Part shown: positions 26,325-54,475 of the stretch, in pieces | Layout: every line of letters starts with the position of its first letter | How positions within the stretch are numbered: the stretch's first letter is position 1 | Source: Anaerolinea thermophila | Lineage (GTDB): Bacteria; Chloroflexota; Anaerolineae; Anaerolineales; Anaerolineaceae | DNA: 64,000 bases | Direction of reading: 5' to 3' | Assembly (NCBI RefSeq): GCF_020723905.1 | Contig: NZ_DYHZ01000002.1 | Coordinates: 62,001-126,000 of the forward strand | Position numbers and translations under genes: made by a program | The notes under the pieces: model-generated | Told to the model about the DNA's origin: nothing | The model's input: only the letters and a program-made list of their open reading frames with translations | The model's database searches: none

Positions 26325-26344
26325 TTGAACAAATGTGCTATAAT
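26325..26344 (+). promoter_or_regulatory. Candidate SOS/LexA-like box abutting the recA -10 element
   Basis: TTGAACAAATGTGCTA (26325-26340) overlapping TATAAT (26339-26344); matches 13/16 positions of TAGAACAAATTTTCTA at 53614. Confidence 0.55.
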
Positions 26345-28697: not shown

Positions 28698-28937
28698 TTA
28701 ACTGGAACTGCCCTCTGCCACGCCCAGCCAGAGATGATTGGGCAGGACCTGTTTGCTGGTGCGCAGTTCAATCGTACCGGCTTTGGGGTGTTCTTCCGCT
28801 ACCATGGAAGGGTGCACAAAGCACAGGGTGGGCATGATGCCGTATTTCTTCTGGTAATACGCCGCTGCGCGCTGTACTTTGGTCTGTAAATCGGCGTGGG
28901 TATCGCCATCATACCAGAGCATACCGGTTCGCATCAT
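28698..28937 (-). CDS. Small conserved-looking protein of unknown function (79 aa)
   Basis: ORF 4 bp downstream of the 28941-29798 gene on the same strand, apparent operon. Confidence 0.6.
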   Translation of the reverse strand: MMRTGMLWYDGDTHADLQTKVQRAAAYYQKKYGIMPTLCFVHPSMVAEEHPKAGTIELRTSKQVLPNHLWLGVAEGSSS

Positions 28938-28940
28938 CTT

Positions 28941-29798
28941 TCATTCCTCCATTTTTTCCACATCAGGCAGGGGTTTGCCTGCCAGTTCAAATTTCAGCCA
29001 GCCTTCCGGCAGGCGCACGCAGAACTGCTCACGGTGATCAAGAACAGGAAGGTTTTCCTCCACCAGCGGCAGGGCGGAATAGGTGTTTCCCTCGCTGGAC
29101 CAGCCCAGAATGCGCGTCTTGAACAGACGCACCCACCGGGCAAGGTTGGGAATACGAGCGGCGGGGGCAGTTGCCACTACCCAGACGCCTGCTTCTGCAC
29201 CCTGTTTGATGAGCCAGTCCAGTTGCACGAGACCATCGTATCCCAGCGCCATCACCGATTCGAGATCGTCAATCAGGATGAGCACAGCAGGACCACCGCG
29301 AACCCCCATGCGGCGCTGTTCCACCAGTTCTGACATGGATTTCAGCCAGCGGGTGCAGGGTTCGCTCTCCAGGGGTTCAATGGCAAGGCAGTGGCGATCA
29401 GCGTTTTGATCACTGCGCCAGGACCACCAGCGTTCGGGTTGTGAAGACAGAATCAGGTATTGCAGGCGGTGAGGTGGATTGCAGGCAATGCCGCTCTCCA
29501 GAATACTGCGCAGAATGTCTCGCCGGGAGGCGCGGTGATCGCTGAGAATCAATACTGCACCGGGAGTAGGATCGTTCAGGTCTAACAGCACGGGTAAGCC
29601 GTCCTCGCCCACTCCCAAAAGGGTGGTGTTGGGTGGAAGTCGTCTCGGTGTGGCGGGACGCTGCCGGGTTCCGGAAGCAGTTTGGGCGCGTGATTGCAGG
29701 GAATCTCCCACACGCTGAGCAACACGCTGTCCGGTTTCCCTCAAACTGGGAAATGGACGCAGAGGTTGAAGCGGGGGCATGGGACGCATGGAGTTCAT
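28941..29798 (-). CDS. FtsK/SpoIIIE-like ATPase-fold protein lacking a recognisable Walker A
   Basis: Arrangement resembles FtsK-type core: GAVLILSDHRASRRDILRSIL in the Walker A region (no GxxxxGKS/T), Walker B-like AVLILIDDLESV, GVWVVATAPAARIPN sensor-like strand. Confidence 0.5.
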   Translation of the reverse strand: MNSMRPMPPLQPLRPFPSLRETGQRVAQRVGDSLQSRAQTASGTRQRPATPRRLPPNTTLLGVGEDGLPVLLDLNDPTPGAVLILSDHRASRRDILRSILESGIACNPPHRLQYLILSSQPERWWSWRSDQNADRHCLAIEPLESEPCTRWLKSMSELVEQRRMGVRGGPAVLILIDDLESVMALGYDGLVQLDWLIKQGAEAGVWVVATAPAARIPNLARWVRLFKTRILGWSSEGNTYSALPLVEENLPVLDHREQFCVRLPEGWLKFELAGKPLPDVEKMEE

Positions 29799-29827
29799 GA
29801 GTGTTTCTTTCTTTATATTTACTGATT

Positions 29828-29875
29828 TAGAACATTAGTTCTATTACAGTATACAGTGAATCTCGCGCTTGTCAA
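29828..29875 (-). promoter_or_regulatory. Promoter with SOS/LexA-like palindrome upstream of the FtsK-like operon
   Basis: Minus strand TTGACA - 16 nt - TATACT (29875 to 29848) followed by TAGAACTAATGTTCTA (29828-29843; perfect TAGAAC-N4-GTTCTA). Confidence 0.65.
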
Positions 29876-53574: not shown

Positions 53575-53629
53575 TTGACATTATAGAACATATATTCTAT
53601 AATCACTTTACACTAGAACAAATTTTCTA
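53575..53629 (+). promoter_or_regulatory. Consensus sigma-70 type promoter with two SOS/LexA-like palindromes
   Basis: TTGACA - 17 nt - TATAAT (53575-53603); TTATAGAA-N6-TTCTATAA (53581-53602) fills the spacer; second TAGAA-N6-TTCTA at 53614-53629. Confidence 0.75.
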
Positions 53630-53668: not shown

Positions 53669-54475
53669 ATGAACAACAACAGTCGTGCCATGAGCGCGCA
53701 ATTTCGCTCAGCCATTTCCCGCGCGGACCCGAGTGTGGTGTTCCTGGTGATGATCCTGGGGGCGTTGGTTGCCTTCGAGATCTTCAACTACAGCACCACC
53801 GATCACGCCCTGCGGGACCTGCTGGGTGACCTCAAATTTGGCGGGATGTACTGGTCCACCATTCTCGCAATTGCCTTTTGCGGGATTGATTTTGCCGGGA
53901 TTGCCCGCCTGTTCACCCCCGAACAGGGCGCTGATGAACCCCGCGAAATCTGGTATCTGTTCGGGGCGTGGTTGCTGGCGGCAACCATGAACGCCATCCT
54001 CACCTGGTGGGGGGTGTCCATGGCAATCACCAATCACAAGGTGCAGAGCGCCGCTGTCATCAATCCCAAGACGATTGCCACGGTTGTGCCGATCTTCGTT
54101 GCCATCATGGTGTGGGTCATCCGGGTGTTGATTATTGGCACGCTTACCGTGGCGATGGATCGGGTGCTCCGTGGAGAAAGTTCTCGTTCCCGTTCATGGA
54201 GGAGCACAGCGGCAACTTCTGCCGGTTTGCCCACCCCTGCACCTCTGCCCACTGCCCCATCCTTTGCACCGCGTCCAACGCCCACCCCATCGTTGAGCCG
54301 CAGTGCCGCACCCACTTCGCGGGCTTCTTCCAGCGCCTCATTCTCTGCGCCTGCGCCTGCTGAGTCTGCGCCGATCCCTGAACCCACCTATCACAGTCTC
54401 TCCATGAGCGGACGCGCTTCCAGCGCTGCACCTGTGGGCAGTCGCCCTGCACAAACACCCACCCGCCGATTATAA
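53669..54475 (+). CDS. Membrane protein of unknown function with Pro/Ser/Ala-rich C-terminal tail
   Basis: About 4 TM segments, then low-complexity tail; strong promoter and RBS upstream. Confidence 0.75.
   Translation: MNNNSRAMSAQFRSAISRADPSVVFLVMILGALVAFEIFNYSTTDHALRDLLGDLKFGGMYWSTILAIAFCGIDFAGIARLFTPEQGADEPREIWYLFGAWLLAATMNAILTWWGVSMAITNHKVQSAAVINPKTIATVVPIFVAIMVWVIRVLIIGTLTVAMDRVLRGESSRSRSWRSTAATSAGLPTPAPLPTAPSFAPRPTPTPSLSRSAAPTSRASSSASFSAPAPAESAPIPEPTYHSLSMSGRASSAAPVGSRPAQTPTRRL

Follow-up and report, generated by a model that had tools for sequence, protein, structure and literature searches.

A predicted LexA-controlled operon in an Anaerolineae lineage pairs a putative FtsK-derived pseudo-motor with a conserved small protein

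Why would a bacterium keep a relative of the DNA translocase FtsK that has no GK[ST] P-loop, and why is its gene joined to one for a protein of 79 residues under a shared operator? The locus that raises this question lies in the window, by which we mean the whole stretch of 64,000 nucleotides that was analysed (G000:C10:62001-126000 of a 3.29-Mb genome in 13 contigs). Our analysis indicates that, in the Anaerolinea group of Chloroflexota, the operon probably connects cell division and the handling of the chromosome to DNA damage. We hypothesize that it encodes an SOS checkpoint module that acts on FtsK or the septum and uses the motor-like protein as an adaptor, a reading to which we assign a probability of about one half.

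Table 1. Features of the operon and of the recA promoter used for comparison (positions in the window)
Feature	Position	Strand	Basis or remark
285-aa FtsK/SpoIIIE-family putative pseudo-ATPase	28941..29798	-	motor fold only; without alpha domain, gamma domain or TM segment
79-aa conserved small protein	28698..28937	-	homologue searches, alignment, predicted fold
-35 hexamer TTGACA	29870..29875	-	promoter scan
-10 hexamer TATACT, spacer 16 nt	29848..29853	-	promoter scan
Predicted LexA/SOS box TAGAACTAATGTTCTA, arms TAGAAC/GTTCTA, core GAAC-N4-GTTC	29828..29843	-	conserved; also at recA, lexA, uvrA
Lost Walker A, SDHRASRR, residues 86-93	29520..29543	-	alignment with relatives
Walker B-like VLILIDD	29265..29285	-	Asp177 kept; FtsK catalytic Glu replaced by Asp
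Shine-Dalgarno GGAGG of the small gene	28946..28950	-	within the 3' end of the FtsK-like gene
recA LexA box TTGAACAAATGTGCTA	26325..26340	+	same window, overlaps -10; control identifying the operator

The sequence-only reading of this DNA had described a 285-aa ORF followed by a 79-aa ORF. Both are present at the claimed place, on the minus strand, which that reading had not given, and the second ORF lies directly downstream of the first, at a gap of 3 nt (TGA-AAG-ATG) and not the 4 bp stated. The GGAGG sequence is located 8 nt 5' of the second ATG, and translational coupling of the small gene to the FtsK-like gene is likely. The promoter boxes also noted at that stage hold up well: TTGACA-16-TATACT (29875-29848) agrees with the consensus at 11/12 positions, and the expected number of such promoters in the region is 0.5. 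What had been called a perfect 16-bp palindrome has perfect 6-bp arms around a 4-bp centre that is not palindromic (TAGAAC-TAAT-GTTCTA). It does lie over the expected start site, as it begins 4 nt downstream of the -10 hexamer. The "tight-looking operator" is real, and what had gone unrecognised is its identity as a LexA/SOS box.

In Firmicutes and Actinobacteria, LexA has the motif GAAC-N4-GTTC (PMC3323433), and the genome studied here encodes a LexA with LexA_DNA_bind and Peptidase_S24 domains (L132:982-1707). The perfect pattern TAGAAC-W-N3-GTTCTA occurs at only 2 sites in the 3.29-Mb genome, at the operon described here and upstream of an operon with a family-B DNA polymerase. Near-match boxes are present at recA, lexA and uvrA, those at recA and lexA with 2 mismatches. 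The strict core is found at 42 genome sites compared with 19 for a control pattern and is uninformative in one genome, so that the TAGAAC/GTTCTA arms and conservation across genomes are needed. Genome-wide, sites with 2 mismatches show no excess over the control pattern; we accepted them only at promoters of expected genes or if conserved across genomes, and the case for LexA therefore rests on position and conservation.

This conservation is extensive. Within 260 bp upstream of the chromosomal orthologous loci, a box with at most 1 mismatch was found in 58/76 and with at most 2 mismatches in 68/76, whereas the same loci yield a background rate of 0.002 sites per search window for matches with at most 1 mismatch. 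The box is present at a similar distance from recA at 21 of 30 loci from this genome and its relatives, and upstream of LexA homologues in 12/30 stretches. The aligned operon sites give a clear TAGAAC-N4-GTTCTA consensus, which partly reflects their selection by likeness to this pattern. Many of the more distant members of the small-protein family, in other classes, are likewise preceded by a LexA-type box. Some distant small-gene loci have no detectable box and neither do the copies on mobile elements (0/23 viral contigs), and both results count against our best explanation. Given the position and conservation of the box, LexA very probably represses the two-gene operon.

The search for boxes led to further candidates in the same genome. 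The other perfect box is followed by overlapping ORFs on the minus strand (L152:2801-6216), the last of which encodes the family-B DNA polymerase; this is likely an SOS polymerase operon. In the window, two LexA-like boxes with one mismatch each are located 30 bp apart (53584-53599 and 53614-53629), and 3' of them lies a gene for a 268-aa probable membrane protein without a Pfam match (about 53669-54475, plus strand), possibly a further SOS gene. The sequence GAACATATGTTC, at about position 2015 of L112 (G000:C4:136612-136627), overlaps the start codon of mraZ, the first dcw gene, and could reflect either LexA control or chance. Separately, a stretch outside the window (L161, G000:C10:155000-160000) gives, on translation, a repeating pattern of the kind expected from a long CRISPR array.

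What kind of protein is the 285-aa product? It contains the motifs LILSDHRASRRDILRSIL, AVLILIDDLESV and GVWVVATAP and no GK[ST] P-loop, which bears out the FtsK-type layout without a P-loop that had been read from the letters. At the site of SDHRASRR, P-loop-bearing relatives have GDxxCGKT and the alpha-type motors described below have GxTGSGKT. A profile search matched EccC5 (1.7e-15) and FtsK (1.1e-5). In the predicted structure (pLDDT 85, core near 97) residues 1-50 are of low confidence and are followed by one motor domain, which resembles the EccC ATPases 2/3 and FtsK motor domains at E-values of 1e-11 to 1e-9, an ASCE/FtsK-like fold. No Pfam FtsK_SpoIIIE match above the cut-off was obtained for this protein, while the P-loop-bearing relative L007 reaches 27.2 bits at a cut-off of 24. 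Alpha, gamma and TM domains were not matched either, and single-protein searches of Pfam, NCBIfam, PHROG and PADLOC returned nothing useful for the 285-aa or the 79-aa protein. Peptide patterns recovered no relatives of the 285-aa protein, as it diverges too fast. Several non-catalytic residues are nevertheless conserved (P55, G62, P69, G80, D177, W206, F226 and G232). The profile, the predicted fold and the P-loop-keeping relatives confirm the proposed kinship to translocase motors, and from sequence and model the protein is almost certainly an FtsK-derived pseudo-motor, for which a regulatory or scaffold role is plausible.

The relatives suggest how such a protein arose. In other Chloroflexota families the related gene encodes a soluble FtsK of about 330 to 510 aa with the Pfam domains FtsK_alpha and FtsK_SpoIIIE (alpha-type). 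A LexA box lies close upstream in most copies examined; none was found at the alpha-type genes of two f23 genomes (L340 and L342) or at the 2 canonical FtsK genes checked. Most alpha-type genes are followed by a gene for a two-TM protein, whose N-terminus has two hydrophobic segments and which also contains a Pro/Gln-rich stretch and, at the C-terminus, an R(R/K)FxVIG-like motif. This family, seen downstream of alpha-type FtsK at L093, L095, L096, L017, L023 and L338-L348, resembles an FtsK anchor and linker that have a gene of their own. The order FtsK, TM protein, small gene is found in L082, L332 and L338.

All 20 alpha-type sequences have both the GK[ST] motif and the D-E pair. Among the 45 short-type sequences, GK[ST] is kept in 24 and D-E in none, which argues that the catalytic Glu was lost before the P-loop. 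On the tree, the P-loop state must be inferred to change 7 times, with well-supported branches forcing at least 3 of these changes, and the four Anaerolinea-type sequences form one P-loop-less clade in which the frames stay open. As judged from these alignments, in the window's lineage the alpha domain and the catalytic Glu of the motor disappeared first, and the P-loop was then lost several times. The short type likely descends from a LexA-controlled soluble FtsK; the branch leading to it is long, and the argument for descent rests on homology and shared context.

By distribution, the widely conserved core of the module is the 79-aa protein rather than its FtsK-like partner. It has the motif M-x-x-GMLWFDND...YYxKKYGxxPxLCFVHPSM...VLPNHxWxGV and no TM segment, and is predicted to fold as strand-helix-three strands (pLDDT 80). 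The model has no confident structural match; the best PDB match has an E-value of 0.48, and none is to a protein of known function. In a library of viral structures, only weak similarity to phage proteins of roughly 80 aa without assigned function was found. The lack of a TM segment and of a match to any protein of known function both weigh against our best explanation. No Pfam family matches more than one of 33 members, and a search of named phages and plasmids gave no match. The protein is present in 31/41 relatives, in 65 of 301 genomes sampled from the phylum, at 236 places in GTDB genome contigs and on 23 IMG/VR contigs. The best 80 of the 236 matches are all labelled Chloroflexota or a subgroup of it and, being the best, over-represent close relatives. 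The genes in these loci were called mechanically as ORFs, and the names of their neighbours come from reading the translations except where a domain call is given.

Among these 80 best chromosomal loci, the FtsK-like gene is directly upstream of the small gene in 39 (gap -29 to +55 nt), and the two genes of the operon are conserved together, as the sequence-only reading needed them to be. The box precedes the FtsK-like gene in paired loci and is otherwise found immediately upstream of the small gene. In about half of the chromosomal small-gene loci no FtsK-like gene adjoins; the two genes need not occur together, a result that counts against our best explanation. In some genomes (L318-L327, families f49 and f58) the small domain is N-terminal in longer frames of about 145-550 aa, often with a LexA-type box upstream; these frames are possible fusions.

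The small gene also occurs in two other settings. In 5 genomes it is placed between mraY and murD and has no LexA box (L083, L085, L086, L251 and L260; L260 and L301 come from one genome). Three genomes (G026, G028 and G228) have this copy and a second one outside dcw, which in G028 is preceded by a LexA box and in G026 and G228 lies downstream of a LexA-controlled alpha-type FtsK. The dcw copies cluster together in a poorly resolved tree and possibly have one origin, so we do not count the five cases as independent. An FtsK/SpoIIIE gene, with an intact Walker A where checked, is located within roughly 5 kb at 9 of the 23 viral or element loci (two of the 9 are near-identical), and in L166 the FtsK gene ends 66 nt before the small gene. 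The IMG/VR contigs (L165-L186) also hold primases, ParB-like/methyltransferase proteins and an integrase, and some of them may be integrative elements rather than phages.

How could the module work? DNA damage would lead to RecA-driven cleavage of LexA, which would free the promoter so that both proteins are made together. The 285-aa putative pseudo-motor retains the motor fold without the residues for ATP binding and hydrolysis, and the 79-aa protein would be the conserved effector, most likely one that binds FtsK-type motors or the surrounding septal machinery. The pseudo-motor could serve as the adaptor of the 79-aa protein or, as a partner that does not hydrolyse ATP, could modulate the FtsK of the cell itself. 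As a result, septum closure would be delayed or chromosome clearance altered until repair, and the module would do with unrelated parts what SulA, YneA or SidA do. The sequences give good support to the ancestry and to the steps from damage to LexA cleavage. The complex between the two proteins, the target and the checkpoint effect are steps that we infer, the target from the recurrent linkage to FtsK-family genes and from the mraY-murD position. That the 79-aa protein acts on FtsK or the septum is a suggestion that we make tentatively. It is possible, and more speculative, that the checkpoint is common to the Chloroflexota, with the small-protein family acting on FtsK or the septum, and that a "split FtsK", a LexA-controlled soluble translocase whose membrane anchor and linker is a protein of its own, turned into the pseudo-motor adaptor of the Anaerolineales by repeated loss of the P-loop.

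Could the operon instead serve DNA repair? An FtsK-derived DNA-binding clamp, together with a small protein that modulates RecA or repair enzymes in the manner of DinI, would leave division unaffected, and recA, uvrA and a DNA polymerase do share the LexA box. The small protein is also DinI-like in size and SOS control and occurs on mobile elements. However, the listed PDB matches include no DinI fold, we saw no recurrent repair-gene neighbourhood (holA adjoins in some loci), and the place of the small gene between mraY and murD in several genomes also speaks against it; we regard this explanation as rather doubtful. Mobile elements could also have supplied the whole module, as an SOS-induced transfer or packaging motor with its accessory that the host kept for transfer-like or anti-element functions. 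The element-borne small genes near intact FtsK/SpoIIIE, primases, ParB-like/methyltransferase genes and an integrase are in line with such a source. Yet the module and its LexA box have long been conserved by vertical descent across Chloroflexota, no integrase was noted beside the chromosomal copies, and PADLOC, named phages and plasmids gave no match. We consider such a source improbable, and it accounts for the origin of the module better than for its present function.

The remaining explanations concern the FtsK-like protein itself. Its repeated loss of catalytic residues, and its absence from about half of the small-gene loci, could mean that the ORF is a functionless, decaying gene that rides along on the promoter from which the small gene is expressed. 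A decaying gene is hard to reconcile with frames that are open in the orthologues examined, even in old clades that have lost the P-loop such as the four Anaerolinea-type sequences, with the confident core fold of the window protein and with the conserved non-catalytic residues, and we give this idea very little credence. The best profile and fold matches, to EccC domains that are themselves degenerate, would fit an accessory of type VII-like secretion, in which a relative of EccC ATPase domain 2/3 works with a secreted or Esx-like small partner. We rejected this reading as extremely improbable: no EccB- or Esx-like neighbours were seen when the neighbourhoods were read by eye from ORF translations, the small protein is predicted to be alpha/beta and not a helical hairpin, and soluble FtsK motors that carry the FtsK alpha domain appear to be the origin of the gene family. 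The SOS checkpoint on FtsK or the septum is the reading that we carry forward.

No description of an SOS response in Anaerolineae was found in the literature searched, and our analysis now predicts both the LexA operator of this lineage and its core regulon, among whose most constant members is a small-protein family without a Pfam entry. The intermediates appear to show a damage-controlled DNA pump turning into a non-catalytic partner. If the checkpoint role is true, the module would represent an FtsK-based way to halt division after damage outside the model phyla.

The 285-aa protein has the ASCE motor fold and homologous sequence in common with the FtsK/SpoIIIE translocase, and E. coli ftsK is also SOS-induced, from the SOS promoter dinH (PMC4080785). 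Compared with E. coli FtsK, the 285-aa protein lacks the TM, alpha and gamma domains, Walker A and the catalytic Glu, and its gene is predicted to be co-transcribed with that of an unrelated small protein. The best fold matches are the EccC/EssC ATPase domains 2 and 3 and the EccC DUF domain, and the degenerate FtsK-family ATPase domains of EccC are thought to be regulatory (PMC11154593). In contrast to EccC/EssC, the 285-aa protein stands alone, is predicted to be LexA-controlled and is encoded outside any secretion locus.

DinI is a LexA-controlled protein of about 80 aa with relatives on mobile elements. The 79-aa protein resembles it in length, in its predicted LexA control and in having relatives on mobile elements, but the predicted order of its structural elements is different and the listed PDB matches hold no DinI fold. 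Like SulA, YneA, SosA and SidA, the 79-aa protein is small, lineage-specific and, by its sequence context, LexA-controlled, and we propose a checkpoint role for it as well. No relation to these proteins in sequence or known fold was found; unlike the YneA and SidA kinds, it has no TM segment and is paired with a putative pseudo-motor.
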